From Bacillus cereus (GTDB lineage Bacteria > Bacillota > Bacilli > Bacillales > Bacillaceae_G): a DNA stretch of 48,033 bases. The DNA is taken from assembly GCF_002584535.1 (NCBI RefSeq), contig NZ_NUOT01000048.1, positions 1 to 48,033 on the forward strand. Direction: 5' to 3'. Under the pieces are notes generated by a model. That model did not search any database and was not told where the DNA came from. It saw only the letters and a list, made by a program, of their open reading frames with translations. Below are positions 7,188 to 43,380 of the stretch, one piece after another (position 1 is the first letter of the stretch; each line of letters opens with the position of its first letter). The translations under genes and the position numbers were made by a program.

Positions 7188-8534
7188 TTAACTATGATTT
7201 TTCCCTATTTTCAATATATAGATTCCTAAAATAACAAATCCTAGTCCTACAAACGGGACAGTTGGAAACTTCGTTCCTGTTGATGGCAGGTGATGCTTTT
7301 CCTTACTTGCAATATCACTTTCCATTGTGTGCTCTTTACTTTGTATATCATAAGATTGTTTAGTACTTCCATATGTAGCATGCACTTCTTTAATTTCCAG
7401 GCCACTTGTTATTTTTTGATTCTTTATTTCTATTTCTGCTATCTCGCCAGTTTTTACTTCCATTTTTTTTATTGTAGGATCAAGTACATAACCCTCTGGA
7501 GCCTGAATTTCTTTTACAACATATGTACCAGTAGGAAGTTTATTTAATGTAGCAATCCCATTCTCAGTTGTAGTGATTTCTTGTCTAAAATCCCCATGTT
7601 CACTTACAACCTCAAACACTGCCCCTTTTAAAGCTTCTCTATTTTCTCCTACCTTCATAATTTTTAACGACCCTAAAAACCCCCATCTTACTACTATATC
7701 TGTACTGCTTTTTTCACTCATTCTTGGTAATAAAGCTGTTGTATTCTGAACCCTTTTTTGGCCATCAAAGGTAACTGCTTGTAAGCTCTGCAATTTTGCA
7801 TTTACTCTTATCTTGAAATTTCCACTTGTTGCGTTTTTGGGAATCATCACTTTAAATTTTTCCTCTATAGAGAATTCATTCTTTTTTTCACCTTGCTCAT
7901 TTATAATTTTAACTCCTTCTGGTGCGCCCTCCATTTGAACTGAGTATACTCCAGATAATGAATTTGATTGAACTGTATATAAATTTGTTTCAAAAAATTC
8001 CCCATTTTGCTCTACAGTTTGTTTTCCAGTAGGTATTACGTTCAAATATATTTCCTGAACTTCAGTACCTTTAGAAGCCTTTTCTACCAAATGTTTTACA
8101 AGGTTATATACCTGTTGGTTTTCTGGCTTTGAATCGGCAAATTCAATTTTTTTAGATACAATCCAGATAGCTAGTTGAGTTGCATAGTAGGCTTCCTCTT
8201 TTGTAGAAACCCCTAATTCAGCCGGCGTTTTTTGAGGGTATCCATAAAGTAAGACACGATATACTAAATCACTTTCTTTTCCAATTTCAGAAAGATCATC
8301 TCCATTAGGTGAATCCAGATCAGGTGATAAACAATATGCAACATCTTTTGATGACGTTCTTAGTAAGTCTGACTTTATCTTTACTTTATTACCTTTGAAT
8401 TTAATATAATTCCAGTTCATTTGAAACTTTTCTTGATGTATTACCTCGGCTGCTGCTTGCGGAATAGAAACCCCTAGCAGTATAATGATTAAACTTATAA
8501 TTCCAAACCATTTTGTTAATATCCTGCGTTTCAT
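7188..8534 (-). CDS. LPXTG surface adhesin with thioester (TQXA) and SpaA-type domains
   Basis: 448 residues from the ATG at 8532-8534, placed after GGTGGGA; an ATG 7 codons upstream has no binding site. Signal peptide to about residue 29 (PQAAAE). An N-terminal thioester domain is marked by Cys68 in AYCLSPDL and Gln120 in YYATQLAIWIV, the pair that forms an internal Cys-Gln thioester able to bond covalently to host or surface amines. About residues 286-365 form a SpaA/prealbumin-like Ig domain (GSLKIMKVGENREALKGAVF ... GTYVVKEIQAPEGY), with a possible Lys to Glu/Asn isopeptide. The C-terminus has the sortase signal LPSTG, a hydrophobic helix and a K-rich tail. Exported and covalently attached to peptidoglycan by sortase A. 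No sortase gene is nearby. Confidence 0.88.
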   Translation of the reverse strand: MKRRILTKWFGIISLIIILLGVSIPQAAAEVIHQEKFQMNWNYIKFKGNKVKIKSDLLRTSSKDVAYCLSPDLDSPNGDDLSEIGKESDLVYRVLLYGYPQKTPAELGVSTKEEAYYATQLAIWIVSKKIEFADSKPENQQVYNLVKHLVEKASKGTEVQEIYLNVIPTGKQTVEQNGEFFETNLYTVQSNSLSGVYSVQMEGAPEGVKIINEQGEKKNEFSIEEKFKVMIPKNATSGNFKIRVNAKLQSLQAVTFDGQKRVQNTTALLPRMSEKSSTDIVVRWGFLGSLKIMKVGENREALKGAVFEVVSEHGDFRQEITTTENGIATLNKLPTGTYVVKEIQAPEGYVLDPTIKKMEVKTGEIAEIEIKNQKITSGLEIKEVHATYGSTKQSYDIQSKEHTMESDIASKEKHHLPSTGTKFPTVPFVGLGFVILGIYILKIGKNHS

Positions 8535-8555
8535 TTCATTCCCACCATTCATCAA

Positions 8556-27240: not shown

Positions 27241-27255
27241 AAAGTGGTGAACGAG

Positions 27256-28002
27256 ATGAATGAAAAAGTAAAGATAAAAGAGTTTATACAAATTTTAAAA
27301 AGGCGACTCTTAATCATTATACTTACGACAATTTGTACAAGCGGGTTCATTATTATTTCATCCATGTACCTTATGAAACCGATTTACCAGTACTCCACCC
27401 AAGTACTTGCTGGATCTTTAGGTGTAGAAAAAGAGGAAAATCCAGTAAATAAGGTACAAGATAACAGACAGCTAGCTCTTTCATATATGGATATTATAAA
27501 AAGCCCATATATCATGATAGGCGTAAAAGAAGAGTTACACCTAACTCGTTCAAGCTATGATTTGCTGAAACAGGTTTCCGTTACTAATAGAAATGATTCA
27601 CAGATTATTACGATTTCAGTGAAAGACTCTGATCCACAATTAGCTAAAAAAATTGCACAATCTGTCGCAAAACAATCCATATCTAAATTTAAAGACTATG
27701 CAAATGTAAACCGACTTAATATTCTTAATGCTTCCGAGGTAATGGAAGAAGCTGAACTACTTTTTCCAAAACCAAAATTCATTATAGCCATTTCAATCAT
27801 AATCAGCTTTTTTGCCGGAATTGGTTTAGCAATTCTACGAGAACACTTTGATAATTCAACTTACAACAGTCGAGAGCTCGAACACCTTGGTCTCCCGTTA
27901 TTAGGAAGAGTGCACTTACATACAAAAAAAAGAAACAACAAGCAAAAAACAGCTTATAAGAGCTTACCTTCTATGAAACGAGGTGAACATAATGGCTATT
28001 AA
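27256..28002 (+). CDS. Wzz/CpsC-like chain-length and kinase-adaptor protein
   Basis: 248 residues from ATG 27256, with GGTG upstream; two in-frame GTGs (27244, 27247) overlap that site. Two transmembrane helices (about 17-38, RLLIIILTTICTSGFIIISS; and about 174-193, IIAISIIISFFAGIGLAILR) flank a 130-residue extracytoplasmic loop: the Wzz topology. It controls polysaccharide chain length and, in Gram-positives, activates a BY-kinase partner. The cytoplasmic tail after TM2 (HFDNSTYNSRELEHLGLPLL) matches the CapA/CpsC pattern. It overlaps the next gene. Confidence 0.85.
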   Translation: MNEKVKIKEFIQILKRRLLIIILTTICTSGFIIISSMYLMKPIYQYSTQVLAGSLGVEKEENPVNKVQDNRQLALSYMDIIKSPYIMIGVKEELHLTRSSYDLLKQVSVTNRNDSQIITISVKDSDPQLAKKIAQSVAKQSISKFKDYANVNRLNILNASEVMEEAELLFPKPKFIIAISIIISFFAGIGLAILREHFDNSTYNSRELEHLGLPLLGRVHLHTKKRNNKQKTAYKSLPSMKRGEHNGY

Positions 28003-28612
28003 ATTTAAGAGGAAATATTTCTTTAATCCAGACGATATCACCATCAAAGAACGATTTTATAGCATATGTAACCATATTGAACCGAACCTTCAAAAGGAAA
28101 AGTCAATATTAATGATTACTTCTCTTGCACAAACAAAAAATATAACCCATGCTACTGCTTATTTGGCCCTTGCTTTTTCAGAACAACGAAAACGAGTGCT
28201 GGTAGTGGATGCAAATCTGCGTCAACCTTCTTTACATCATGTGTTTCATATTGATCATTCATTTGGCCTAACCAACTTACTCTTAAGAGAGAAAAATAAG
28301 GATACTCCAATAAAAATAACGGATTATCTATCTTGTTTACCTACAGGCGAGGATCTTTATGAGCCAGTGACATTGTTAACATTAGAGACCTTCCCAATCC
28401 TAATTGAGGAGTGGAAAGAGCATTTTGATATCATCCTGTTTCACACATCCGATTTCTTAAACACACCAGATGCACAAATCCTCACAAAACATTGTGATGG
28501 CACTGTTTTAATGATACAGGAAGGCCGTGATAAGTTAGATAAAATTGCGAATGTAAAAAAACAACTAGAACATAGCAAACATGAAATAATCGGTACAGTC
28601 ATTATTTCATAA
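27992..28612 (+). CDS. CpsD/BY-kinase-like protein with degenerate ATP site (pseudokinase)
   Basis: 206 residues from ATG 27992 after GAGGTGA; it overlaps the Wzz-like gene by 11 bases. The fold of CpsD/CapB tyrosine autokinases is clear: KSILMITSLAQ...ATAYLALAFSEQRKRVLVVD, then ANLRQPSLHHVF...GLTNLL. The P-loop, normally SATPGEGKS(T/S), is SLAQTKNITH (residues 44-53) and has lost the GK(S/T). Walker A' keeps VLVVDANLR. Walker B, normally VIIDTPP, is ILFHTSD (148-154) without the Asp. There is no C-terminal tyrosine cluster; the protein ends EIIGTVIIS. Probably a non-catalytic partner of the Wzz-like protein. Confidence 0.82.
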   Translation: MAIKFKRKYFFNPDDITIKERFYSICNHIEPNLQKEKSILMITSLAQTKNITHATAYLALAFSEQRKRVLVVDANLRQPSLHHVFHIDHSFGLTNLLLREKNKDTPIKITDYLSCLPTGEDLYEPVTLLTLETFPILIEEWKEHFDIILFHTSDFLNTPDAQILTKHCDGTVLMIQEGRDKLDKIANVKKQLEHSKHEIIGTVIIS

Positions 28613-28626
28613 AGGGGGAGTAACTT

Positions 28627-29265
28627 TTGGACCCAAAAATAAAGATTGATAGACAGGTAGAACTACAAGTAACGCCTCTATCAACTTCATCCTACCTTCT
28701 TGTTAAACGACTTATAGATTTTGTTTTTTCGCTTTTCATGCTGTTCCTTTTATCACCCATTTTAGTTCTTTTTTGCATCCTTATCCCAATCGAATCAACT
28801 GGTTCTCCCTTCTTTTATCAACAGCGCCTGGGGAAAAACGGAAAAGATTTCAAGTTAATAAAGTTACGCTCCATGTTTTTAGATGCCGAAAAAAATGGTC
28901 CTCAATGGGCAAGTAAAGAGGATCCTAGGGTTACAAAAATAGGTAACTTTATAAGAAAAACTAGAATTGATGAAATCCCTCAAGTTATTAACGTGTTAAA
29001 AGGAGATATGTCGCTCATTGGCCCTAGACCTGAAAGAGAATATTTCTATAAAAAGTTTGATAAGTCATTGCCTAATTTTAAACATCGGTTACTTGTAACG
29101 CCTGGAATAACAGGATTGGCGCAAGTGAATGGTGGATATGATCTAACTCCCGAAGAAAAATTAGCATTCGATTTATACTATATCCAGCACAGATCATTCG
29201 CTATGGAAATCAAGATTTTATGTCGAACATTGGCCATTGTATTTACTGGAAATGGGGCTAGATAA
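28627..29265 (+). CDS. Initiating sugar-1-phosphate transferase (WcaJ/EpsL type)
   Basis: 212 residues from TTG 28627, which follows AAGGGGGAG. Transfers a hexose-1-phosphate from a nucleotide sugar to undecaprenyl phosphate, the first step of repeat-unit assembly. One N-terminal re-entrant or membrane helix (about 27-52) is followed by the family core: PFFYQQRLGKNGKDFKLIKL and RSM, then KIGNFIRKTRIDEIPQVINV, LKGDMSLIGPRPE, and TPGITGLAQVNGG. All conserved bacterial sugar-transferase motifs (Asp-Glu pair in RIDEIPQ, RPE) are present. Short form without the CoA-binding-like N-terminal domain. Confidence 0.92.
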   Translation: MDPKIKIDRQVELQVTPLSTSSYLLVKRLIDFVFSLFMLFLLSPILVLFCILIPIESTGSPFFYQQRLGKNGKDFKLIKLRSMFLDAEKNGPQWASKEDPRVTKIGNFIRKTRIDEIPQVINVLKGDMSLIGPRPEREYFYKKFDKSLPNFKHRLLVTPGITGLAQVNGGYDLTPEEKLAFDLYYIQHRSFAMEIKILCRTLAIVFTGNGAR

Positions 29266-29287: not shown

Positions 29288-30232
29288 ATGAAGAAAGTGC
29301 TAGTAACGGGGGGCTTCGGATTTATCGGATCCCATATTGTAGAAAAATTAATTCATAATAATTATGAAGTGGCTGTGTATGATAACTTATCCACCGGATC
29401 CGTAAATAATCTCCATTCGAAAGGTATAGCTTTCTTTGATAATGTAGAAGATGAAAGATCATTAGAAAAAGCGATGGAGGCGTTTCAACCTGACTTTGTA
29501 GTTCACCAAGCTGCGCAAATTAGTGTACAAAACTCCATTTCAAATATAACAAATGATGCACGAATCAATATAATAGGGTCAACAAATGTCATAAAACTCT
29601 CTCAAAAATATCGTGTTAAAAAAATCATATTTGCTTCTTCAGCGGCTGTATATGGAAATTCTAAAGTCATGCCTATTTCAGTCTCACATCCTTCTCGCCC
29701 CTTATCACCTTATGGCGTCTCCAAAAAAACAGCTGAGGATTATTTAAAACTCGCAAAAGAATTATATGATATAGACTATGTCATTCTTCGTTACAGTAAT
29801 GTCTATGGTCCAAGGCAAACCGCAAGCGGTGAAGGCGGAGTGATTTCAATCTTCATAAATCATTTCATTAAACAGGAGCAATCTATTATTTATGGGGATG
29901 GTTTACAAACGAGAGATTTTATCTATGTAGACGATGTAGCAAGCGCCAATCTTAAGGCATTGAACTACAATGGAAGTGGTACTTTCAATATATCATCAGC
30001 AACTTGTACAAGTATCAATGAAGTATTCTCGATGATTCAATCGATTGGGAAACAAAATATTCCCCCCATTTACCAACCTGCAAAAGACGGTGACGTCAAA
30101 GAAAGTTTGCTCTGCAATAAAAAGAGCATTCAACAATTAGGCTGGCAACCTGTATATGCATTGGAAAAAGGTCTTGCGAATACATATGATTATTACCTGA
30201 AGCAAAAAGAACCTACATCTGTATTTAAGTGA
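29288..30232 (+). CDS. NAD-dependent sugar epimerase (UDP-hexose 4-epimerase-like)
   Basis: 314 residues, GAAGGGAAG upstream. Rossmann motif GGFGFIGSH (residues 8-16), the SSAAVYG strand with catalytic Ser/Thr, and the YGVSKK motif with Tyr and Lys of the short-chain dehydrogenase extended family. NxYGPRQ and DFIYVDDVA are substrate- and dimer-contacting blocks of the GalE/WbpP branch. It supplies a UDP-sugar, probably UDP-Gal or UDP-GalNAc, to this operon. The exact substrate is not set by sequence alone. Confidence 0.9.
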   Translation: MKKVLVTGGFGFIGSHIVEKLIHNNYEVAVYDNLSTGSVNNLHSKGIAFFDNVEDERSLEKAMEAFQPDFVVHQAAQISVQNSISNITNDARINIIGSTNVIKLSQKYRVKKIIFASSAAVYGNSKVMPISVSHPSRPLSPYGVSKKTAEDYLKLAKELYDIDYVILRYSNVYGPRQTASGEGGVISIFINHFIKQEQSIIYGDGLQTRDFIYVDDVASANLKALNYNGSGTFNISSATCTSINEVFSMIQSIGKQNIPPIYQPAKDGDVKESLLCNKKSIQQLGWQPVYALEKGLANTYDYYLKQKEPTSVFK

Positions 30233-30262: not shown

Positions 30263-31735
30263 GTGAATAAGAAAACAAACTCAATTATTAAAAATATATT
30301 CCACTTACTTTACAGCACGATTTTAGCTAATGTTTTAAATGCAGGTACACTCATACTATTAGCAAATTACTTTAACTCAAAGAACTATGGAATATTTAGT
30401 GTAGCACTAGCTCTTTCCATGGTCATGCATTTTTTTACAGATTTAGGAGTCAGTAATACGTTCCTTCGAGAAGGAGCAAAAAAAGAAAACCCAAGCGCTA
30501 CATTCTTTTCTTATATAAAAGTTCGCGTCATATGTTTACTTTTCACATTTATTATTTTTTCTTTCGGTATCCATGTCTTCTATCATGAACAACAAATTCT
30601 TTATATGATGTATAGTTTAATGATTCCTTTAATCATCGGCCTAGTGCTGCAAAGTATAGGCATAACCTACTTTCAATTATCTGAAAGAATGCAATTTATT
30701 GCATCCATAAGAATCTTCTCGGCCATTGTATTAGTCACATTAACCATTTTGTGTATAACCTTACAAGTGGATATACATGTAACAGCTTTTTTATATGGTT
30801 TTTCTTATTTAGCTGGAGGCCTTTACTCCCTGCATTTACTCAGAAAAAACGTGGAATTCAAATGGCAAGTCCCTTTTCAAAAAGAATTATTGATGAATAT
30901 TAGCCCGTTCTTAATTAGTGGGTTATTTATTATATTAACCCCTCAACTAGGTCCATTAGTATTAGAAAAAACACTTCCTTTAGGGCTTGTGGGTCTCTTT
31001 GCAGTAGCTTACCGAATCCCCTCAGCTCTCTATCAAATACCAGGGGTTATTGCAGGTGCATTCTTCCCACTGTTATTTAAACATTATAGTCATGGGGAAA
31101 TAAAGAAACATACAGAATTAAATATCCTGCAAATGAAATTTATGTCCTTAATTGGAATGTGTATGACAATAGCTTTATTCTATTTATCCCCCTATCTGAT
31201 AACGATTTTATTTGGAGATAAATGGGAATCTGCAGTTGAACCTTTAAAAATATTATCCTTTATTATTGTCTTACAAGGATTTAACATCGCCATTGCTGAC
31301 GGGCTCACAACAAGAGGACTGCAAAATCGCCGTACGATTGTTCAGTTTATAACCATCTCTATTGGCTTACTGTCTTTTTATTATCTCAGTGTTACTTATG
31401 CAATAGCGGGGGCAGCTTTTTCTGCTTTAGCGATGGAAATCGTATCATTTATTGGTTATGTATTAGCCAATCCAATTAGAAGAACCGTATTAACCAAAGT
31501 CGTTATTCCATACGGATCCTACTTTTCAATAAGCTTTATCCTATTACACTACTTATTATATAAGTTTCCTTTTATCGCCATGTTTTCTACCATGATCTTA
31601 ATGTCTACGATGGTTTTACTATTTGATCAAGCTACTCGGGACTTGATTAAAGGCTTTATAAGAAAGAAAAAACAACAGAATATCAACCATTTAAAAGACG
31701 GGAGACAACGAGGGAATGGAAAGATTACAAATTAA
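30263..31735 (+). CDS. Wzx-type oligosaccharide flippase
   Basis: 490 residues from GTG 30263 after GGGAGAG. About 14 transmembrane helices of the MATE/MOP polysaccharide-transporter family: an N-terminal IIKNIFHLLYSTILANVLNA helix, STSNTF-like region (LGVSNTFLREGAKKENPS), and later FAVAYRIPSALYQIPGVIAG with LLFGDKWESAVEPLKIL. It flips lipid-linked repeat units to the outer leaflet. It overlaps the polymerase gene by 20 bases. Confidence 0.88.
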   Translation: MNKKTNSIIKNIFHLLYSTILANVLNAGTLILLANYFNSKNYGIFSVALALSMVMHFFTDLGVSNTFLREGAKKENPSATFFSYIKVRVICLLFTFIIFSFGIHVFYHEQQILYMMYSLMIPLIIGLVLQSIGITYFQLSERMQFIASIRIFSAIVLVTLTILCITLQVDIHVTAFLYGFSYLAGGLYSLHLLRKNVEFKWQVPFQKELLMNISPFLISGLFIILTPQLGPLVLEKTLPLGLVGLFAVAYRIPSALYQIPGVIAGAFFPLLFKHYSHGEIKKHTELNILQMKFMSLIGMCMTIALFYLSPYLITILFGDKWESAVEPLKILSFIIVLQGFNIAIADGLTTRGLQNRRTIVQFITISIGLLSFYYLSVTYAIAGAAFSALAMEIVSFIGYVLANPIRRTVLTKVVIPYGSYFSISFILLHYLLYKFPFIAMFSTMILMSTMVLLFDQATRDLIKGFIRKKKQQNINHLKDGRQRGNGKITN

Positions 31736-32936
31736 AAGAAATACTTCTACTTTAGAAGTCTTTCTTTTGTTATTTTTTATTACACTTAGTAAATATAATG
31801 TATCCATCGGTTTTTCATTAAAAATTTACATGATTTTTCTAGCCGTTTTTTTCTGTATTTATTTTCGAGACTTTTACTTTCGTCCCCTTTATCATTATGA
31901 AATTTTATTGCTTTTATTTTATTTTATCTATTGTCTAAGCGGTGCTTTTTCACAGTATCCAGAAGCAAGTATTCGCGTCATTCTAGGAGTAATCCTTGTC
32001 CTTATCTGCTATTTCATCATGAGGTATATGCTGGAGCAAGCTTCCATTCATTCTATTGAAACTTCCATTGCAAATGTCGGGATGCTATTTAACGTGATTA
32101 GTTTATTACTATACATAATTGGACTACAAATAACCGGTGGATCCCCAACAGGCGTTGAGATTACTTCTTACGGATTATTATTAGATAGAGATTATCCAAG
32201 GCTAATTGGACTACTTGATGACCCAAACATCTTCATTTTTTATAATACATTGTTTTTTTCGTATTATTTAACACACTTAAAAGGATTTAAAAACTCCTTT
32301 GGATTTATCTTATGTATAATTACTAACCTCCTTACTTTTTCTCGAGGCGGTATTGTTGCCCTAATACTCGTTATCATTTTGTATATAATATTAGCGGATT
32401 TTCAAAAAAAGGTGAAAATGATACTTGTTGCCCTGTTATGCCTAGTTGTAATGTACGCCGCAAGCTCTTTTATTCAAATCGATTTGAATCAGATTATTTC
32501 CAGTCGTATCAATGACTTTTCTTCTGATAAAGGAAGTGGTCGATTTGAATTATGGAAACAGGCCATTACCTATTTTATGTCTCATCCCCTTTTGGGAATC
32601 GGTACCTTTAATTTTTCGGATTATTACGCATTTGAACATAATGAAAAACTATATGTTCATAATACATATCTAGAAATCTTAGTAGAGGCTGGAATTATTG
32701 GTTTTCTGTTTTACTTTTCTTTTTTATTACTGTTCATTATCAAGCTCTTTAAGACTAAATTACATATTGAAAAACCTTTTATTATTCTTACACTTTTTGC
32801 TTTTTTATTGCAGATGGTATCCCTTTCTCTCATGATTAATGAAGCGCTTTTCTCCTTTTTAGCAATTGCTTTAAAATATATTTCTGTATATGAAAGAAAA
32901 GAGGCTGGTTTTTATGATATACACGAAAAAAGATAG
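31716..32936 (+). CDS. Wzy-type O-antigen/polysaccharide polymerase
   Basis: 406 residues; about eleven transmembrane helices with a large loop near residues 265-315 containing FELWKQAITYFMSHPLLGIG and TYLEILVEAGIIGFLFYF, the O-antigen ligase/polymerase (Wzy_C) signature. LTFSRGGIVALILVII is also typical. It joins flipped repeat units into polymer at the outer membrane face. Overlaps both neighbours. Confidence 0.88.
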   Translation: MERLQIKRNTSTLEVFLLLFFITLSKYNVSIGFSLKIYMIFLAVFFCIYFRDFYFRPLYHYEILLLLFYFIYCLSGAFSQYPEASIRVILGVILVLICYFIMRYMLEQASIHSIETSIANVGMLFNVISLLLYIIGLQITGGSPTGVEITSYGLLLDRDYPRLIGLLDDPNIFIFYNTLFFSYYLTHLKGFKNSFGFILCIITNLLTFSRGGIVALILVIILYIILADFQKKVKMILVALLCLVVMYAASSFIQIDLNQIISSRINDFSSDKGSGRFELWKQAITYFMSHPLLGIGTFNFSDYYAFEHNEKLYVHNTYLEILVEAGIIGFLFYFSFLLLFIIKLFKTKLHIEKPFIILTLFAFLLQMVSLSLMINEALFSFLAIALKYISVYERKEAGFYDIHEKR

Positions 32937-33717
32937 TGAATCATTGGTTTCTGTGATAACCCCCTCGTATAACAGCTCCCCTTTTATAAAAGAAACCATT
33001 GAATCCGTTCAGGCCCAATCATATGCTAACTGGGAAATGATTATCGTTGATGATAAGTCGAAAGATGACTCCGTTCACGTCATCAAACAATATATAGAAA
33101 AAGACCCGCGAATTAAACTGATTACTTTAACTAAAAATGTTGGTGCTGCTAGAGCTAGAAATATAGCATTAAAAGAAGCTCAAGGAGATTATATTGCCTT
33201 TTTAGACAGCGATGACCTCTGGTTACCTACCAAACTAGAAGAACAAGTCGCTTTTATGCAAAAAGATAATCTTGCTTTTTCTTTTACCTCTTATTCTTTA
33301 ATTGACGAACAAGGAAATGCAATGAATATTCAAGTTCATGCACCGAAAGTTGTAGATTATAAATATCTGCTGGGAAATACGACGATTGGCTGTTTAACCG
33401 TGATGTTAGATAGGCATCAATTTAAACAAATTGAAATGCCTGTTATCCAGCCTGAAGATACTGCCCTATGGTTAGTATTATTACGGCTAGGATATCAAGC
33501 ATATGGCTTACAAAAGAGTTTATCTAAATATCGTATTGTAAGTAACTCTACTTCAAGGAATAAATTAAAAGCTGCCTACCGATATTGGAAACTCTTACGA
33601 AACCAAGAAAAGTTAAACTTTGTCAAAACCAACTTTTATTTTAGTCAATATGCTTATCATGCATACAAAAAAAACAGAGGAGACCGACCTCCTTCTATGA
33701 CCAGTGGAGGGAAATAA
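32914..33717 (+). CDS. Family 2 glycosyltransferase
   Basis: 267 residues from ATG 32914 (AGAGG upstream); an in-frame ATG at 32890 lies deeper in the polymerase gene. GT-A fold: SVITPSYNSSPFIKETIESV, WEMIIVDDKSKDDS with the nucleotide Asp pair, KNVGAARARNIALKEAQGDY, IAFLDSDDLW with the DxD metal motif, and PEDTALWLVLLRLGY in the catalytic base region. Adds a sugar to the lipid-linked repeat unit in the cytosol. Confidence 0.92.
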   Translation: MIYTKKDSESLVSVITPSYNSSPFIKETIESVQAQSYANWEMIIVDDKSKDDSVHVIKQYIEKDPRIKLITLTKNVGAARARNIALKEAQGDYIAFLDSDDLWLPTKLEEQVAFMQKDNLAFSFTSYSLIDEQGNAMNIQVHAPKVVDYKYLLGNTTIGCLTVMLDRHQFKQIEMPVIQPEDTALWLVLLRLGYQAYGLQKSLSKYRIVSNSTSRNKLKAAYRYWKLLRNQEKLNFVKTNFYFSQYAYHAYKKNRGDRPPSMTSGGK

Positions 33718-33720
33718 AAA

Positions 33721-34770
33721 ATGAACAATATTCTACTATTAACCGATAAACTCATAACGGGCGGCGCTGAGATGTATTTTTGCAAACTAGAAAACCATCT
33801 CAAAGGTGAAAACATGACGTTTTATTCAGCAGCTGCCACAGGTGAGTTGTATCATCAAATTCATAATAAGCATCATTTTATTCCTTTAAGTTTAAAAAAT
33901 CATCCTGCTAACCTCTATACATTAAGTAAACAAGTAATGAAATTGAACATTGATGTTATCCATGCAAATAGTTTCAGAATGTTACTGTATTCTATCGCAA
34001 TTAAAAAAATCACGAAAAAAAGAATGAAGCTCATTTATACAAAACATAATGTTACAATACTTGAAAAAAAGTTTCCCGCGCTATTAAAAAAAGTGTTAAA
34101 TCAACATGTTCATCAAATTATCGCAGTGAGTAACTTCGAGAAAGACAGCTTACTGCAATTGGGTATAAGAAAGGACCTTATTCGAACAATTTACAATGGT
34201 GTTGATGTAAAGCATTTTTCATTTCAACAAATACAACCTAAAGAAACCCTCAATATCGGGATTTTAGCCCGGTTATCAAAAGAGAAAAACCATGAACTTT
34301 TTTTAAAAATTGCAAATGAGTTAAAATATGTACGTAACGTAATGTTTTATATTGCTGGGGATGGACCTGAACGGGACTTTATTGAAAAAATGATTCATGA
34401 TTTCAAGTTAAATCATAAAGTGAAGCTTTTAGGTAATACATCTAATCCATATGAATTTATTTGCAGTATGGACTTACTGCTTCTAACGTCTCTAAGAGAA
34501 GTGTTTCCAATGGTAGTCATTGAAGCAATGGCTTCTGGAACACCTATTATTTCTGTAGATGTTGGTGGTATCAAAGAAGCTATCATAGATGATGAAACTG
34601 GAATTCTCGTTTCTCATCATTCTGAAAAAGAATTCGCAAAGAAAATCCAGTTACTTCATGACAATCAAAACCTAAGAAAATGTTTAGGAAAAGCGGCAAG
34701 AGAAAAAGTAGAAGAAGCCTTTTCCCTCTCAAATATGATTCATTCTACACTTGAAACCTATCAATATTAA
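33721..34770 (+). CDS. Family 4 glycosyltransferase
   Basis: 349 residues, GGAGGGAAA upstream and only 3 bases from the GT2 stop. GT-B fold: N-terminal TGGAEMYFCKLENHL loop, NGVDVKHF linker, IAGDGPERDFIEKMI donor-domain strand, and SLREVFPMVVIEAMASGTPI with the E-x7-E motif of family 4. Retaining transferase using a nucleotide sugar. Last gene before a strong terminator, so the operon has eight genes. Confidence 0.92.
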   Translation: MNNILLLTDKLITGGAEMYFCKLENHLKGENMTFYSAAATGELYHQIHNKHHFIPLSLKNHPANLYTLSKQVMKLNIDVIHANSFRMLLYSIAIKKITKKRMKLIYTKHNVTILEKKFPALLKKVLNQHVHQIIAVSNFEKDSLLQLGIRKDLIRTIYNGVDVKHFSFQQIQPKETLNIGILARLSKEKNHELFLKIANELKYVRNVMFYIAGDGPERDFIEKMIHDFKLNHKVKLLGNTSNPYEFICSMDLLLLTSLREVFPMVVIEAMASGTPIISVDVGGIKEAIIDDETGILVSHHSEKEFAKKIQLLHDNQNLRKCLGKAAREKVEEAFSLSNMIHSTLETYQY

Positions 34771-34799
34771 AAAACAAACGATAATCTCGTTTGTTTTTT
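34769..34799 (+). terminator. Terminator of the exopolysaccharide operon
   Basis: Perfect 13-bp inverted repeat AAAAAACAAACGA / TCGTTTGTTTTTT, 5-base loop. Separates the operon from the beta-helix gene. Confidence 0.85.
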
Positions 34800-34868
34800 C
34801 TTTTATATATATGCATTTTTTCAAACATGCATATTATATAATATCTCACATATAAGGAGTGTTATAAG

Positions 34869-36410
34869 TTGACAGAGCCTCTTAATTTTACTGAAGACTG
34901 CCAAAATCAAAATGTTGTTAATATTGATTGTTTTGGTGCCAGTCCAGATTTACTCGATAATTCCCAAGCTATTCAAGAAGCCATTAACTATTGCGTGGCC
35001 AACAATTATTCTAAAGTTGTTATTACCGGGAAGAAACAGTATACGATCTCCTCCCCTATTGTTATGAAGTCCAATGTACATCTTGAAATGGACCCGACTA
35101 TAACATTAATCGTTAAAGGGAATTTCCAAGTGTTTGAGCTTCAAAAAAACACTTCAATCTCTGGTGGTTCGATTGAAATCGTGGATAATAGCTTTAACTC
35201 ATCCGTTCTTTTTCTTTCTGGTGCCAATCAAATAGAAATTCATAATCATACTTCTATATCAAATATTAATATTATAAATCGTACAACAACTTATCAAGGT
35301 ATTGCAATTCATTTATCCTGTAAAAAGGCATGGGATTTCATAAGCTTCTTTAAAGCATACTCCATCCAAATCACAAACTTTAATACGGCTATCTATTTAA
35401 AAACAGAAAAGCTTGAGGATATAAACAATCCTTGTTGGATTAATGCAAACTCCTTCCATTCTATTTTTATAGATGGTTGTCAGTATGGTATCGAGATTAT
35501 AGGAAATGGTGAATTACCTTACGAAATTTCAGGAAACACCTTTACGGGAATCCAAGTTCAATGCCGGAAACAAACAAAAAAAGTAATCCGCTGTTCAGGT
35601 GCCTATAATATATTTGAAGGAATCATATGGGACGTCTTTCGTATGGATGCCGCTCCCCTCGTTATCGAATTCTCTTCCACTTCTCATCATAACTACCTAT
35701 TCTCAAATCAAGTTTCCACATCGATTATCGATCGTGGCCTATACAATCGGTATACCACGCCACATGAAGAATCGCTTCCTGTATACCCTCCTCTAGCATT
35801 AGGAAAAGCCCAGCTAGTTGGGAATCAAGATGATATATTAGTAAATGCAAATGTCCGTTACGCAGTGCGCCAACTTTCTGGAAAAGCCCCCTACGGAGGA
35901 CATATTAATAATTGTTTTAACTTGCTTGATGAGCAAAGTGTAAATTACGTGGATGTTCCGAGTACGCAGCCAATTGTAATCGAGTTAGATTTTTCTAAGC
36001 AGCCTATTAACATGCTGAATTGTATTGGTATCTATTTTGGATGGAATGAAAGCCCAAGTCGCATTTTAATTGAATATCAACAGAGCCTAAATGGCCCATG
36101 GCAGGTTGCTAAAGATCTTCCGTTTAATGCCGGAAATACTGTGCTTTCAGAAGTAAGGTCAACTATATTGTATAAAGTTAAGTTCACACTAAGCGGATAT
36201 ACACAAGATCACAAACGCTTTCGGATAAATCGAATATTCGCAAGGTCATCTCTGCAACATGGCTCCTCATGGTTACCAACTACTGGTGGTACTTTATATG
36301 GAGATTTAGAATTTCAAAAAGGAAATGCTGTGACGTTAACTTCCCCAAATGGAACAAAATGGAGATTGAGTATAAATGATCAAGGGCAAATTAGCACATC
36401 TAAACTATGA
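34869..36410 (+). CDS. Beta-helix (pectin-lyase-like) protein with tailspike-like C-terminus
   Basis: 513 residues from TTG 34869 after AAGGAG. No signal peptide or membrane helix. Residues 16-300 form a right-handed parallel beta-helix: FGASPDLLDNSQAIQEAINY is the usual cap of glycosyl hydrolase 28-related and tailspike proteins, followed by many G-N-x-F and I-x-N-I repeats. Residues 340-455 look like a jelly-roll carbohydrate-binding module (QPIVIELDFSKQP...GIYFGWNESPSRILIEYQQ). The last 45 residues (TGGTLYGDLEFQKGNAVTLT, then SPNGTKWRLSIND) match the ends of phage tail fibres. The N-terminal domain has a paralogue at 36641-37582. Likely binds or cuts the adjacent polymer; catalytic residues not located. 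Confidence 0.8.
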   Translation: MTEPLNFTEDCQNQNVVNIDCFGASPDLLDNSQAIQEAINYCVANNYSKVVITGKKQYTISSPIVMKSNVHLEMDPTITLIVKGNFQVFELQKNTSISGGSIEIVDNSFNSSVLFLSGANQIEIHNHTSISNINIINRTTTYQGIAIHLSCKKAWDFISFFKAYSIQITNFNTAIYLKTEKLEDINNPCWINANSFHSIFIDGCQYGIEIIGNGELPYEISGNTFTGIQVQCRKQTKKVIRCSGAYNIFEGIIWDVFRMDAAPLVIEFSSTSHHNYLFSNQVSTSIIDRGLYNRYTTPHEESLPVYPPLALGKAQLVGNQDDILVNANVRYAVRQLSGKAPYGGHINNCFNLLDEQSVNYVDVPSTQPIVIELDFSKQPINMLNCIGIYFGWNESPSRILIEYQQSLNGPWQVAKDLPFNAGNTVLSEVRSTILYKVKFTLSGYTQDHKRFRINRIFARSSLQHGSSWLPTTGGTLYGDLEFQKGNAVTLTSPNGTKWRLSINDQGQISTSKL

Positions 36411-36533
36411 AAATCATACAAATTAAGATCCATTTACTTCCATTAGTAGATGTCATATGCTCCCCTTTGATATCTTCAAATGTTAACTAAACAAAAAAAC
36501 AAAATACTCCAACAATTCAAACTGCATCATCAT

Positions 36534-36600
36534 GCCCCTAGAAGATCAATTTCAACTTATACGTAATAATTGTCCCCTTCTCTACATGAATCTAGGGGCT
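36534..36600. terminator. Long-loop hairpin between convergent genes
   Basis: GCCCCTAGA and TCTAGGGGC pair across a loop of about 48 bases. Possible terminator for both beta-helix genes; the run of T is poor. Confidence 0.35.
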
Positions 36601-36640
36601 TCTCCTAAGAAAGCCACGTCCGATTGAGAGAACCTTACAG

Positions 36641-37582
36641 TTACTGTTTCACTTTATTTGCTTGTCCACTATCGGAGATTCTGCTCATAGGCACAGAAGA
36701 AATATCAATAGTCGTATCCACACTCTTATCAGTAAGCTCAACAATCGTGTTTCCATGATTGATTTGGTTCAAATCCCACAACATCCCATGAAACTCATTA
36801 TGTTGTCCGCTCACCTTCAAGACACTTTTTGTTTTACTTGAAGGTTGTATCTGTAAATTGGTAAATTGATTCCCACTAGCCTCATTCGGTATCGTTGAAT
36901 GACTATCCATGTAAATCATGTTTACACAATCCTCTAAAGAAAAATTCAGAAACCGATTAGCATTGATCCACGCATATCCAGAATTCGGTTTATCCACTTT
37001 TAACTTTACTCCATTCTTCATTCCTACTACCTTAACGTTTTCGAAGTTAACAAAAGAAATCTCATGCTCTTTTCCACCAGCGTATAACGATATCCCTGTA
37101 CCCTTGTTCGTTTCAGACCAATTGATAATATTTATATCCTTTATATGTGTTTTGTTCCAAGTGTTATAATATTTATGTTTACCATCTAAATAGATCACTT
37201 CCGAATTAAAATTCGCATCATCAATGGCAATATAGGCCCCTTCCATTGAAGCATTCCTCTCAAGTTCAATTACCCTGAAGTTACCATTCACAATAAACTG
37301 TGTTCCATACCCGAATAATAACTTAACACCTTGCTTCACAACGATAGGTGAAGTAATCTTATACTTTTTGTCATCAAGCAAAACCGTCTTTATTTTACTA
37401 TCCTTTGCTTTATTAATAGCTGATTGAATTTTATCAGAATCACTTGTTCCTTTAAAATCCTCAACATATATTTTCTCTTTTCGATCTGAATTAGAATGAT
37501 TCTGATAGTAAATAACAAAAACAATTAGCACTATACCTAAGAAGATTAAACCAATTATTTTTTTCATCGTACTCATCCCCAT
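36641..37582 (-). CDS. Membrane-anchored beta-helix protein, paralogue of the 34869 protein
   Basis: 313 residues, AAAGGA before the ATG. An N-terminal membrane helix (residues 7-25, KIIGLIFLGIVLIVFVIYYQ) without a clear cleavage site suggests an anchor with the rest outside. Residues 40-300 align with residues 20-290 of the 34869 protein: DSDKIQSAINKAKDSKIKTV / DNSQAIQEAINYCVANNYSK; YKITSPIVVKQGV / YTISSPIVMKSNV; IVNGNFRVIELERNASM / IVKGNFQVFELQKNTSI; WINANRF / WINANSF; SGNQFTNLQIQ / SGNTFTGIQVQ. It lacks the jelly-roll and tail-fibre modules. Probably retains or modifies polymer at the membrane. Confidence 0.82.
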   Translation of the reverse strand: MGMSTMKKIIGLIFLGIVLIVFVIYYQNHSNSDRKEKIYVEDFKGTSDSDKIQSAINKAKDSKIKTVLLDDKKYKITSPIVVKQGVKLLFGYGTQFIVNGNFRVIELERNASMEGAYIAIDDANFNSEVIYLDGKHKYYNTWNKTHIKDINIINWSETNKGTGISLYAGGKEHEISFVNFENVKVVGMKNGVKLKVDKPNSGYAWINANRFLNFSLEDCVNMIYMDSHSTIPNEASGNQFTNLQIQPSSKTKSVLKVSGQHNEFHGMLWDLNQINHGNTIVELTDKSVDTTIDISSVPMSRISDSGQANKVKQ

Positions 37583-39216: not shown

Positions 39217-40719
39217 TCATTTTAATTTGTGCCTATTGGGATTGGAAGGTATGATTTTTAATGGTCTCATCATGTCATGGTCTTCATGCTCTAAACGATG
39301 ACAATGCCATACATAGTCTCCAGAATACGGTTCAAACTTCATTATAATTCGAACGATTTGTTCACCCCCTACTAGAACGGTGTCTTTTAAACCGAAATCG
39401 GCCGGGAGAGGATCTAACAATTGCCCATTCAGATCGTGGCGATCAAGGACACGAAAATTAACAAGATGTATATGGATAGGATGAATTCCAACGGTTAAAT
39501 TCACTAACTCCCATATTTCAATAGAATCAAGTAATGGTGTTTCTGTTACTGGATCGTCCCATTCTTTATCATCTAATAAAAGCATAGGACGCCCAAATTC
39601 ATCTTCTGAGTCACTTAGTGTTAACCGTCTTACTTTTCTTACCTCAACTTCCTTTAATGGGATAAATTCAATGTTGCTTAAGAGACATGGAATTTTGCTT
39701 TTATCAGGGCAAGACAACGGCTTAGTTACTTGGAACTCCATTACCTCGCCAGTTGGATTTTCTAAATCACTTCCATTTTGTAATATTACTTTCTTCCCCT
39801 CTAAACCTGAGAAGTCAACAATGATGTCCATACGTTCAGCAGGTGAAACATCCAAACTTTGTACTCTAATTGGCCGTTTAAGAAGACCACCATCAGTTCC
39901 GATTAAAAAGAATGAACTAAGGTCACTAAATTGGAACTGATATGTTCGAGTATTAGAAGCGTTTAATAAACGAAATCTGTATTTGCGGGGCTCTACTTTT
40001 AAAAATGGCCATACTTTCCCGTTAACTGTAATTGTATTTCCTAAAAACAGAGGAACAATAGAAGGACATGGTAAATTAGGGGATGGATTATCTGGTTGAG
40101 CAGGATAAAAGAGGGACCCGTCTGGATTAAAGGATCTATCTTGAACGATAAGCGGTATCTCGTATTTCCCCTTCGGAAGCGGAAGTGATCTTTCTTCCTT
40201 ATCGCGAATCAAGTAAAGACCTGCAAGACCTGCATACACATTCAGACGAGTAATCCCAATTGCATGGTCATGATACCAAAGGGCAGTTGCTCGTTCTCGA
40301 TTCGTATAATAATAAATCTCTTTCACGAATTTCGGGCCTGTTTGTTGAAAGTTTCTCGTAAACCATGCTTCAGGATGACCATCACTATCTGGTTCACTTG
40401 GGCTTCCATGTAGATGAACAACAGTGCGTACTTCTGGATTATCATGGGCTCCGTGAACGGTTTTATCAACTGGTAAAAAGTGTTTTTTAGGTAAATCGTT
40501 TGTCCATCTCACATATATAGGATGATTTTTTTCAACATCAAATGTTGGACCAGGTACTAACCCGTTATAACCCCATACCTTCGTTTTAGGTAAATCTCTA
40601 TGAAACTTGTGTAGTGTTTCAATCATGCGTACATCATAAAGCGGCTTTCCTTTATATGTTCCTTTTGGTTTGATTATGGAAGGAATCGGAAGGGAATCTA
40701 CAAATTTTTTTAGTCCCAA
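39217..40719 (-). CDS. cotA: CotA-type multicopper oxidase (spore coat laccase)
   Basis: About 500 residues from TTG 40719 (GLKKFVDSLPIPSIIKP); AAAGGAGAG lies upstream. Oxidises phenolics with reduction of O2 to water; in Bacillus spores it makes brown pigment. All four copper-ligand blocks are seen: VHLHGSPSEPDSDGHPEAWF, ALWYHDHAIGITRLNVYAGL, GIHPIHIHLVNF and YVWHCHRLEHEDHDMMRPL; the Met near the end is the axial T1 ligand. Three cupredoxin domains, no signal peptide, as usual for CotA. An ATG at 40721-40723 is better spaced from the binding site but out of frame; it reaches a stop after 23 codons, so the true start is uncertain (see findings). Confidence 0.88.
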   Translation of the reverse strand: MGLKKFVDSLPIPSIIKPKGTYKGKPLYDVRMIETLHKFHRDLPKTKVWGYNGLVPGPTFDVEKNHPIYVRWTNDLPKKHFLPVDKTVHGAHDNPEVRTVVHLHGSPSEPDSDGHPEAWFTRNFQQTGPKFVKEIYYYTNRERATALWYHDHAIGITRLNVYAGLAGLYLIRDKEERSLPLPKGKYEIPLIVQDRSFNPDGSLFYPAQPDNPSPNLPCPSIVPLFLGNTITVNGKVWPFLKVEPRKYRFRLLNASNTRTYQFQFSDLSSFFLIGTDGGLLKRPIRVQSLDVSPAERMDIIVDFSGLEGKKVILQNGSDLENPTGEVMEFQVTKPLSCPDKSKIPCLLSNIEFIPLKEVEVRKVRRLTLSDSEDEFGRPMLLLDDKEWDDPVTETPLLDSIEIWELVNLTVGIHPIHIHLVNFRVLDRHDLNGQLLDPLPADFGLKDTVLVGGEQIVRIIMKFEPYSGDYVWHCHRLEHEDHDMMRPLKIIPSNPNRHKLK

Positions 40720-40739
40720 ACATTTTTCTCTCCTTTCAT

Positions 40740-41006
40740 TTAATAGAGTATAGTATATTTTATTAAACAAATATTTTTTTGTTTGTATACTTGTCTAACA
40801 AAACTTTTGATAAGTGGGGGAGTATTCATATTCATCAAGGATTTGATTTTCTTCTCTTTTAAAAGCTTTATGCAAGAATATATACATTCTTCTTTTGTTG
40901 CGTATGTTATTGATGCAATTTCAGTTGCATTACCAACAATCAGTTTTCCAAGTATTTTATACATCTTTAGCAGTGCAGGTACAAAAGAATGATTAGACGC
41001 AAGCAA
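40740..41006 (-). CDS. Small ORF directly upstream of the laccase, unknown
   Basis: Up to 88 codons; a likely ATG is at 40964 (MYKILGKLIVGNATEIASIT), which gives 74 residues. Its stop (40740) lies just before the laccase ribosome binding site, so the two would be cotranscribed. Composition is protein-like (YATKEECIYSCIKLLKEKKI), unlike the antisense frame. No good ribosome binding site at either start, so it may be a remnant. Not recognised. Confidence 0.4.
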   Translation of the reverse strand: MLASNHSFVPALLKMYKILGKLIVGNATEIASITYATKEECIYSCIKLLKEKKIKSLMNMNTPPLIKSFVRQVYKQKNICLIKYTILY

Positions 41007-41233: not shown

Positions 41234-42523
41234 TTAACCTTCCCTCTCCACAAACCTCCCAAATTCCTTCAGAAACCGCAGATTCAGCATCCCAACAGGT
41301 CCATTCCGATGCTTCGCTATCTGAATTTCTGTTATATCTTTATGCTCCGTCTCCTTATCATAATAATCCTCCCGATACATCAGCATAATCACATCCGCAT
41401 CCTGCTCAATCTGCCCTGTCTCTCTTAAATCAGAAAGTAGCGGGCGCTTATCATGACGCGACTCCACCCCGCGAGACAATTGTGAAAGCGCTACGACGCA
41501 CACATTTAAATCACGCGCTAGCAGCTTCAGCTTACGAGAAATTTCACTCATTTCCTGAAACCTATTTCCCCGATATTTCGAATCGCCTGTAATAAGCTGC
41601 AAGTAATCAACAATAACAAGCAATTTCTTATCCCCATGCTTTCGTTTCAGCTTCCTCACTTGCACCCAAATCTCCTGCGTTGTGACTCCTGCTTTATCAT
41701 AAATCTCTAGCGGCAGATCCCCAATTTCCGCAAATGCGCGGCTCGTTTTTCCCCAGTCCTCTATCGTAAAACGATGCTTCGGGTTTTTCAGCCGTCTTCC
41801 AGATACCTCACCTAAACAAGAAACCATTCGTTTCAAAAGTTGCTTATCGCTCATCTCCAGGGAAAACAACCCAACTGCCGCATCCGATTTTGCTGCATGA
41901 AGCGCAATATTTAAAGCGAACGCCGTCTTTCCCATCGAAGGCCGCGCCCCAATCACAACAAAATCCCCTTCCTGCAAGCCACACGTCATCTTATTTAAAG
42001 CTGGAAAACCAGTCTCAATGCCAGTAAGTTCTTCTGTATCTTGATGAAGCTCTTCATAAAGATCGACTAACGTATCCTTCAAATCAAAATCGAGTGTGCA
42101 ATCCACCTCTTCCAGTTCACAAAGCCTCGTAATCGTCTCTCCAATTACTTTCTCATCCTTCTCCGCAAGAAGCCGTTCGCACATGCTGTGTGCCACGCTT
42201 CCCGCCTGGTTCATTTTCCAAGCATTCCGAACAAGCCCCTCATAATAAGAGAAGTTGGTAGTAGTAGGCACACCCTCAATCATATTAACTAAGTATTCCA
42301 TCCCCCCAATTTGCGCCAAAAAAGCAGCATCCATTCTTGAAACAAGCGTAACAAGATCAAGCGGCTGCATATCTTCCTCTACTTCCCGAATCAACTTGAA
42401 TATAGCTCGGTGCACAGCCGTAGAAAAGTGCTGCTCAGTCAAGTGGCACTCCTTAATCAGTTCTCCTTCAAGAAGTAAAGACCCTAATACCGTCTGTTCC
42501 GCCTCAACATTTTGAATGCTCAT
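41234..42523 (-). CDS. Replicative DNA helicase, DnaB family (phage-like)
   Basis: 429 residues from the ATG overlapping the DnaD-like gene's stop (ATGA, 42523-42520). N-terminal DnaB domain (NVEAEQTVLGSLLLEGELIK), then the RecA-like motor: Walker A GARPSMGKTAFALN, DLSE-type switch GLFSLEMSDKQLLKRM, Walker B LLVIVDYLQLITG, SQLSRGVESR, and the arginine-finger region DLRETGQIEQDADVIMLMYR. About 20 residues shorter than the housekeeping helicase of Bacillus. Hexameric 5'-3' helicase; together with the DnaD-like protein this is a phage replication module. Confidence 0.92.
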   Translation of the reverse strand: MSIQNVEAEQTVLGSLLLEGELIKECHLTEQHFSTAVHRAIFKLIREVEEDMQPLDLVTLVSRMDAAFLAQIGGMEYLVNMIEGVPTTTNFSYYEGLVRNAWKMNQAGSVAHSMCERLLAEKDEKVIGETITRLCELEEVDCTLDFDLKDTLVDLYEELHQDTEELTGIETGFPALNKMTCGLQEGDFVVIGARPSMGKTAFALNIALHAAKSDAAVGLFSLEMSDKQLLKRMVSCLGEVSGRRLKNPKHRFTIEDWGKTSRAFAEIGDLPLEIYDKAGVTTQEIWVQVRKLKRKHGDKKLLVIVDYLQLITGDSKYRGNRFQEMSEISRKLKLLARDLNVCVVALSQLSRGVESRHDKRPLLSDLRETGQIEQDADVIMLMYREDYYDKETEHKDITEIQIAKHRNGPVGMLNLRFLKEFGRFVEREG

Positions 42524-43380
42524 GGACGCCATCCCTCTTCCTTGAGAAACTTCTGCAACTCTTCTTCAGACGGCACATTTTTCTCCCACTCCTCGCACTC
42601 CTCAAGGAACTTCTCAGTTTCATACACGGCAGTCGGCTCCTTCTTCCGAAACTTCACTGCCGCCTCTTCTACTTCACTAACCTTCGTATATCCCTTTCCG
42701 TGCCAATCTCGCAAAATCCCCTTCACATAAGCAATCGTCCGCTTATTATTTTCATAAGAAATCTGAAGTGCTTTTAATACAAGCTCCTCCGACAAATCAG
42801 CCATCCATTCACTTAATTCCTCCGCTGCATAAGACGACAAACTACCGAAGTGTTGTTCATAAAACGTAAATACACTGCTGCCTGGTTCCGCTTCTGCTAC
42901 TTCCACATCTGCTTCACAGCTTGCAAAGGTTTCTTTAGGGATAATCTCAGACAATTCACTCGGCATACCGAAATGCTCTAGCAATAACGGAATATGTAAC
43001 TCTTCCTCCAAGCATCTTTGAAGAAACATACGGACAAACTCTTTGCTTTTCACAGTCTTCAACTCACGTAACACGCACTTCTCCACGTTTGTATTCGTAA
43101 TCGGATTATAGCGTAACCAATTCAGAATATATAACTCCTTCGTTTCCGCATCGTACAATATCTTTCCATAATCAACAAAGCGCTGCAGTAACTTCTCAAC
43201 GGTCTCCCTGTTATAACCTGTTTCCATCTCCGCCAAGCGCTTCGGCAGCGAATACATCCCGCACTGCGTCGTCTTTGAACATGTCAGCAAATATATGTAA
43301 AAGTACCTCTCCTCCGGCGTTAAATCGAGCACAAAATCATCCTGCCAAAAATTCACCTGTACATTACGGTATACTGCCAT
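42520..43380 (-). CDS. DnaD-domain replication initiation protein (phage-like)
   Basis: 286 residues; a GGAGGAATACAC-type site precedes the ATG. N-terminal winged-helix part (RNVQVNFWQDDFVLDLTPEE, RYFYIYLLT...GMYSLPKRLAEMETGY) typical of phage replisome organisers. C-terminal DnaD/DnaB2 domain at about 165-235 (VFTFYEQHFGSLSSYAAEEL ... ISYENNKRTIAYVKGILRDW) with the YxxxIL(R/K)xW motif. Such proteins open the origin and recruit the helicase encoded just downstream. No origin, SSB or lysogeny gene lies nearby. Confidence 0.88.
   Translation of the reverse strand: MAVYRNVQVNFWQDDFVLDLTPEERYFYIYLLTCSKTTQCGMYSLPKRLAEMETGYNRETVEKLLQRFVDYGKILYDAETKELYILNWLRYNPITNTNVEKCVLRELKTVKSKEFVRMFLQRCLEEELHIPLLLEHFGMPSELSEIIPKETFASCEADVEVAEAEPGSSVFTFYEQHFGSLSSYAAEELSEWMADLSEELVLKALQISYENNKRTIAYVKGILRDWHGKGYTKVSEVEEAAVKFRKKEPTAVYETEKFLEECEEWEKNVPSEEELQKFLKEEGWRP

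Follow-up and report, generated by a model that had tools for sequence, protein, structure and literature searches.

Paired anchored and leaderless tailspike-type proteins beside a Wzx/Wzy polysaccharide locus in Peribacillus and other Bacillales

Analysis of a 48,033-nucleotide stretch of DNA from Bacillus cereus (contig NZ_NUOT01000048.1 of assembly GCF_002584535.1; in the following, the window) revealed two beta-helix genes, here named P1 (34869-36410, plus strand) and P2 (36641-37582, minus strand), which are arranged tail to tail and placed after a Wzx/Wzy polysaccharide locus. Comparison with related genomes and phages assigned both to this adjacent polysaccharide system rather than to the remains of a prophage. 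We consider it fairly probable that they represent a host-owned tailspike-type pair, i.e., WceF-like glycanases or lectins, acting on the polymer of their own Wzx/Wzy locus, where we infer the binding or cleavage of a glycan, the target polymer, and the timing and route of P1 from the comparisons described below. The features of both genes are as follows.

34869-36410, plus strand: P1, leaderless beta-helix protein of 513 amino acids with a TTG start (alignment, PHROGs, tree)
34956-35753, plus strand: beta-helix region of P1, about residues 30-295 (alignment with P2 and phage spikes; fold predicted from family profiles)
35766-36278, plus strand: C-terminal module of P1 common to phage tailspikes, about residues 300-470, a putative jelly-roll as suggested in the preliminary description of this DNA
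36279-36407, plus strand: tail-like C-terminal tip of P1, GGTLYGDL... (alignment with phage spikes)
35523-35525, plus strand: E219 of P1, candidate catalytic residue (E or D in 126/126 family rows)
35631-35633, plus strand: D255 of P1 (D in 125/126 rows, E in one)
36641-37582, minus strand: P2, membrane-anchored beta-helix protein of 313 amino acids (PHROGs, hydropathy, tree)
37499-37564, minus strand: N-terminal membrane anchor of P2, about residues 7-28 (best 15-residue hydropathy 3.42)
36881-36883, minus strand: E234 of P2, counterpart of E219 in P1 (family alignment)
36773-36775, minus strand: D270 of P2, counterpart of D255 in P1 (family alignment)

P1 and P2 aligned across 243 residues with 35% identity (E 1e-41), a similarity far above chance, by which they are judged to be paralogues; the preliminary description, which had proposed a convergent pair aligning along about 260 residues, was right in coordinates and orientation. 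Both proteins matched tail spike families of the PHROGs database (P1 with 2e-78, P2 with 5e-107). Pfam yielded only a pectate-lyase match below threshold for P1 and nothing notable for P2, and assignment to a known enzyme family was rejected, as neither protein reached the thresholds of Pfam and NCBIfam. Among 42 relatives, 11 matched the pectate-lyase-like domain PF12708 at E <=0.01 (best 2e-8). Sequence searches against the PDB with P1 or P2 alone gave nothing significant, and profile searches resulted only in short N-terminal matches to beta-helix proteins, including 3zpp and iota-carrageenase (best E 1e-4). Judging from the family profiles, P1 and P2 probably adopt a beta-helix fold. Searches of the available literature collection yielded nothing on such proteins from Bacillus, Peribacillus, or spores, and the accessible parts of PMC4299904, PMC11406892, and PMC13420450 contain no test of these bacterial proteins.

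An AAGGAG ribosome site precedes the TTG start of P1. Further upstream in this frame, a stop codon is reached with no ATG, GTG, or TTG on the way, and the same start position was found in Peribacillus relatives, either as ATG or as TTG. P1 revealed neither a hydrophobic N-terminal segment in the hydropathy analysis nor an N-terminal extension; its sequence begins directly at the helix. Hydropathy thus bore out the earlier observation that one protein is devoid of a signal peptide and the other anchored at its N-terminus. P1 of the window harbors 10 cysteines, eight of them in the helix part, compared to one in the helix part of P2 and zero in the one leaderless-lineage protein with a signal peptide, which is from Halobacillus. 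Such a cysteine content of P1 would suit folding in the cytosol.

A genome scan yielded 37 bacterial loci, 25 of which had a wzy homologue within the fetched stretch. In Peribacillus (the genus of genome G001), for which all candidates were scored, P1 and P2 occurred together in 9/36 genomes, and a wzy orthologue (74-82% identity) was detected in exactly those nine, in one of them in two frames. In Peribacillus frigoritolerans (G005, locus L014), the wzy orthologue is broken into two frames and P1 and P2 are intact. For the order and class samples, the best three family and the best four wzy candidates per genome were scored, so further copies are possible. Of 397 genomes in the order sample, 35 carried the family, 41 carried wzy (E 1e-20), and 33 carried both (Fisher p 3e-38, not adjusted for kinship); the two family-positive genomes without wzy (G391, G405) held fragments only. 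The class sample of 398 genomes contained five with the family and five with wzy, three of which were common to both sets (G001, G149, G250) and also part of the order sample; apart from these, the family but not this wzy was present in G590 and G027, and a distant wzy but no family member in G516 and G599. Among bacteria carrying this Wzx/Wzy locus, short beta-helix proteins of the family are widespread. The tie to the polysaccharide locus assumed in the preliminary description was therefore upheld, by the same nine Peribacillus genomes and by the wzy gene in 33/35 family-positive order genomes.

Hydropathy divided the cellular family proteins into anchored and leaderless ones, with start codons picked by a ribosome-site rule that left L015, L045, and L146 unsure. 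Of the 33 order genomes positive for family and wzy, 24 had two copies and nine a single copy. All 24 two-copy genomes combined one anchored copy with one copy of the leaderless or P1 lineage, the partner being a leaderless protein in 22 cases, P1 in one, and the Halobacillus protein with its signal peptide in one. The earlier idea of a two-part system was thus strengthened. Within 15 kb of wzy were 27/27 anchored, 19/26 leaderless, and 3/3 P1-type genes. Two family members from Viridibacillus (L037, L044) had no polysaccharide gene match in the examined stretch, and each was followed by a similar open reading frame (ORF). The N-terminus of the one in L037 is reminiscent of phage tail proteins.

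Relatives of P1 were also identified in phages. The spikes of phages Goe8, Mater, Stills, and Staley, whose host on record is Priestia megaterium, aligned with 84-90% of the length of P1 at 24-33% identity, and P1 is collinear with the tailspikes of Goe8, Mater, and Stills through the helix, the C-terminal module, and the GGxLYGD tip, which bears out the tail-like C-terminus noted before. Compared to P1, these three have extra N-terminal residues, namely 33 in Goe8, 50 in Mater, and 162 in Stills. Among the long relatives from phages or prophages, seven of 11 carried 33-178 residues ahead of the helix profile, and the other four, from viral contigs (L075-L078), carried 12-13; since the latter also begin near the helix, the missing N-terminal part alone does not distinguish P1. 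The terminal residues of L075-L078 resemble the end of P1. Considering P1, P2, and the short proteins, the phage C-terminal module was found in P1 only, a result that does not depend on the tree. Thus, P1 resembles the tailspikes of Goe8, Mater, Stills, and Staley (PHROG 12123) in collinearity and tree grouping, but is a chromosomal gene adjoining a polysaccharide locus. The closest phage match of P2 was gp64 of phage BM15 (PHROG 3783), a short beta-helix protein with 51% identity over 92% of P2, which, unlike the anchored P2, is leaderless and falls inside the bacterial leaderless lineage of the tree. A short leaderless beta-helix protein recurred in viral contigs (L048-L071), many of them 150-165 kb in size like phage BM15.

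Given the phage homology of P1 and P2, one might regard them as a prophage remnant lying by chance beside the locus, in particular as a DnaB-type helicase and a DnaD-like loader, i.e., phage-like replication genes (41234-43380, minus strand), are located about 4 kb from P2. This explanation is very improbable. The P1-P2 arrangement was identical in nine other Peribacillus loci, and the helicase and loader pair had no match in the seven of these that were scanned. The ratio of nonsynonymous to synonymous substitution rates (dN/dS) in the Peribacillus pairs computed was low, ranging from 0.03 to 0.10 in either half of P1 and from 0.11 to 0.16 in P2, with synonymous changes saturated in several pairs and the ratio not computable against L125/L126; both genes are under purifying selection. 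Together with the co-occurrence with wzy, synteny and selection led us to disfavor a prophage remnant. A true prophage spike is available for comparison in Bacillus sp. BA3 (G003, from the genus sample), in which a prophage tail module (L112, 5093-14691) encodes a P1-like spike of 776 amino acids among baseplate, tail fiber, and endolysin genes. This strain has P1 and P2 besides that prophage. Unlike the spike of L112, P1 and P2 were not among virion genes, their neighborhood being the Wzx/Wzy locus.

A tree was calculated from 126 of 136 distinct rows, with ten fragments or duplicates left out; its groups were named after viewing the tree, and the program warned of long branches, chiefly Goe8. 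The 12 P1 proteins clustered with the long phage spikes (100/95), separate from the short proteins, and the nearest relatives of P1 were from Peribacillus. Peribacillus P2 and the short phage proteins fell inside the leaderless lineage. A single clade of all 45 anchored rows (one signal-peptide row omitted) was rejected (p 8e-5), and a clade of the 35 anchored rows minus Peribacillus P2 was not (p 0.37); therefore, the anchor of P2 was gained anew within the leaderless lineage. Of the possible domestication from phage proposed before, the kinship of P1 with phage spikes is supported, but not one simple event, since P2 belongs to the leaderless lineage; a single simple domestication of both genes is contradicted by the tree. 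Overall, these comparisons support a phage kinship of P1, with transfer in either direction.

The preliminary description had also suggested a search for a catalytic acid pair, which was found to be retained in 126/126 rows, comprising cellular and phage members. Its retention in both kinds would suit an enzyme, although a structural role may equally explain it. For comparison, WceF of Pantoea stewartii is a tailspike-like stewartan hydrolase encoded in the exopolysaccharide cluster; according to the accessible part of PMC7949094, it clusters with its own polymer and cuts it slowly. On this account, and as the anchor of P2 suits retention, P1 and P2 might serve as lectins or scaffolds, retaining or cross-linking the polymer instead of cutting it, an explanation that we regard as rather unlikely in view of the conserved acids.

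The polysaccharide locus and the hairpin behind it comprise the following features.

27244-28002, plus strand: Wzz-type chain-length protein (Pfam)
27983-28612, plus strand: probable partner tyrosine kinase of the CpsD/CapB type (placement; same spot annotated CpsD/CapB in B. badius)
28627-29265, plus strand: initiating sugar transferase, Bac_transf (Pfam)
29288-30232, plus strand: sugar-nucleotide epimerase (Pfam)
30263-31735, plus strand: Wzx flippase (Pfam)
31716-32936, plus strand: Wzy polymerase (Pfam and orthologue searches)
32890-33717, plus strand: GT2 glycosyltransferase (Pfam)
33721-34770, plus strand: GT4 glycosyltransferase (Pfam)
34769-34799, plus strand: terminator-like hairpin separating P1 from the last glycosyltransferase (scan)
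34830-34838, plus strand: CATATTATA, possible sigma-K-like -10 before P1 with a poor -35 (weak)

A Pfam search with the 209-amino-acid ORF between the Wzz protein and the sugar transferase gave no match; it was taken as the partner kinase because of its placement and the CpsD/CapB kinase annotated there in B. badius. The earlier statement that both beta-helix genes follow a complete Wzx/Wzy operon is correct in that the locus lies upstream, but the hairpin parts P1 from the operon. It was also visible in nine other aligned Peribacillus loci; the scan detected four such sites in 3.2 kb versus 1.7 expected. Since this terminator-like hairpin separates the operon from P1, P1 is probably a transcription unit of its own. 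By inspection, an alignment of the region before wzz made no promoter class evident. Elsewhere in the window, Pfam detected thioester (TED) and SpaA domains in what is probably a surface protein (7188-8555, minus strand), and also a multicopper oxidase (39217-40770, minus strand), which is presumably similar to the spore-coat enzyme CotA.

Regarding the timing of P1, upstream regions were scored with promoter models, for which consensus letters were assumed. Four models were compared at a spacing of 15-17 with a background of 562 real upstream regions. Here, 6/16 non-redundant leaderless genes scored at least 9 with the sigma-K model (background 8.2%, p 0.0006), compared to 0/28 anchored genes, and sigma K alone was raised for leaderless genes; sigma E, A, and G showed no clear excess. 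Against shuffles, with six models at a spacing of 14-17, sigma K gave the largest excess, and sigma E, A, G, H, and F ahead of leaderless genes gave none that was clear. The sigma-K promoter consists of two blocks with a gap of 14-16 bases, as described in the accessible part of PMC517825. Full-score sites were found ahead of the P1 genes in G226 and G251. The site before P1 of the window scored 8 of 10 overall, with a perfect -10 but a poor -35, the nearby multicopper oxidase gene scored 9, and the P1-type set reached 1/4 (p 0.17), two of the four not being locus P1 genes.

From this, it is possible, if doubtful, that P1 is a spore-surface protein, which would be produced under sigma K by the mother cell, be deposited on the spore without the help of a signal peptide, and bind or trim the polymer around the spore, with P2 serving the growing cell. 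The raised sigma-K scores ahead of leaderless but not anchored genes, the excess over the other models, the sites in G226 and G251, and the probable separate transcription of P1 are consistent with this, as are the organisms named here, which we take to be spore formers. The enrichment is modest, however, and came from an assumed consensus and from two tests that differed in spacing; the result for the P1-type set and the score of the window site also speak against it, and chance alone often yields scores of at least 9 (63 across both strands of the window). The sampled order presumably consists mostly of spore formers, so that the host range is little informative.

Another alternative, which appears unlikely, is a depolymerase released by lysis, where cytosolic P1 is freed when cells burst, e.g., upon phage attack, and strips the polymer of neighbors. 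Its effect might be the removal of a phage receptor from kin or the opening of a biofilm. P1 and its leaderless relatives without an export signal would fit this, as would their near relatives, namely the spikes of phages and one leaderless protein from a phage; the anchor gained by the P2 lineage and the signal peptide gained by the Halobacillus protein hint at an action outside the cell. Against this, the hosts in the phage records found are Priestia megaterium and not Peribacillus, with the exception of one prophage.

Several observations weigh against the host-owned pair acting on its own polymer as we favor it. Eight order genomes have wzy without the family, the single-copy genomes comprise four leaderless, three anchored, and two P1-type cases, and G226 and G251 carry P1 and the operon without a second copy. 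Homologues away from polysaccharide loci or inside prophages, which the preliminary description had regarded as contrary evidence, do occur in part, namely as 7/26 leaderless genes lying away from wzy, as tailspikes of Priestia megaterium phages, and as the spike of one Peribacillus prophage. A position of P1 beside the whole leaderless lineage was not rejected by the approximately unbiased test (p 0.09). The class means of 2.1 cysteines in leaderless and 1.7 in anchored proteins lay close together (p 0.02, related rows not thinned). The conserved acids may be structural rather than catalytic, P1 could act inside the cell, and the sporulation link of P1 is a weak one, to be taken as a lead only.

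According to the favored reading of a host-owned pair, P2 would be anchored on the outside of the membrane, where polymer chains emerge, and would most likely bind and slowly cut nascent or attached polymer, so that chain length or release would be set as by WceF. Editing, release, or retention of the polymer, as proposed in the preliminary description, are putative functions of the pair. P1 would be made and folded in the cytosol and would meet the polymer only once the cell opens, most plausibly by lysis of the mother cell in sporulation or by other lysis. We therefore also put forward, as a tentative and rather improbable extension, a two-compartment editing in spore-forming Bacillales, with the anchored protein acting on the polymer of living cells and the leaderless partner stored and released by lysis. 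In the same tentative extension, this partner, which in Peribacillus is of tailspike lineage, would be freed at the end of sporulation or upon phage attack and would free spores or strip the coat of kin.

As precedents, two bacterial systems can be considered. Like WceF, P1 and P2 are tailspike-like and encoded in their own polysaccharide cluster, where action on the own polymer is presumed here and was shown for WceF. WceF is a single protein from a Gram-negative host, which carries a Tat signal and whose N-terminal domain is tailspike-like, whereas here two paralogues, one anchored and one leaderless, occur in Gram-positive Bacillales, and P1 begins at the helix. The detachable tailspike TspA of the Rhodobacter gene transfer agent, as far as described in the accessible part of PMC13420450, is likewise a phage-derived spike used by a bacterium, with a biofilm polysaccharide as its target, but is part of a particle, whereas the neighborhood of P1 showed no particle genes.

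A tailspike-like enzyme for the own polymer is already known in a Gram-negative bacterium, namely WceF; here, a protein of this kind recurs in Gram-positive Bacillales as a pairing of an anchored and a leaderless member, with the leaderless slot in Peribacillus filled by a protein that is tailspike-like over its full length. This raises the question why one member of the pair is usually devoid of an export signal. The pair offers candidate polymer-specific enzymes, and the exchange of such proteins between phages and the coat loci of their hosts becomes traceable on the tree.

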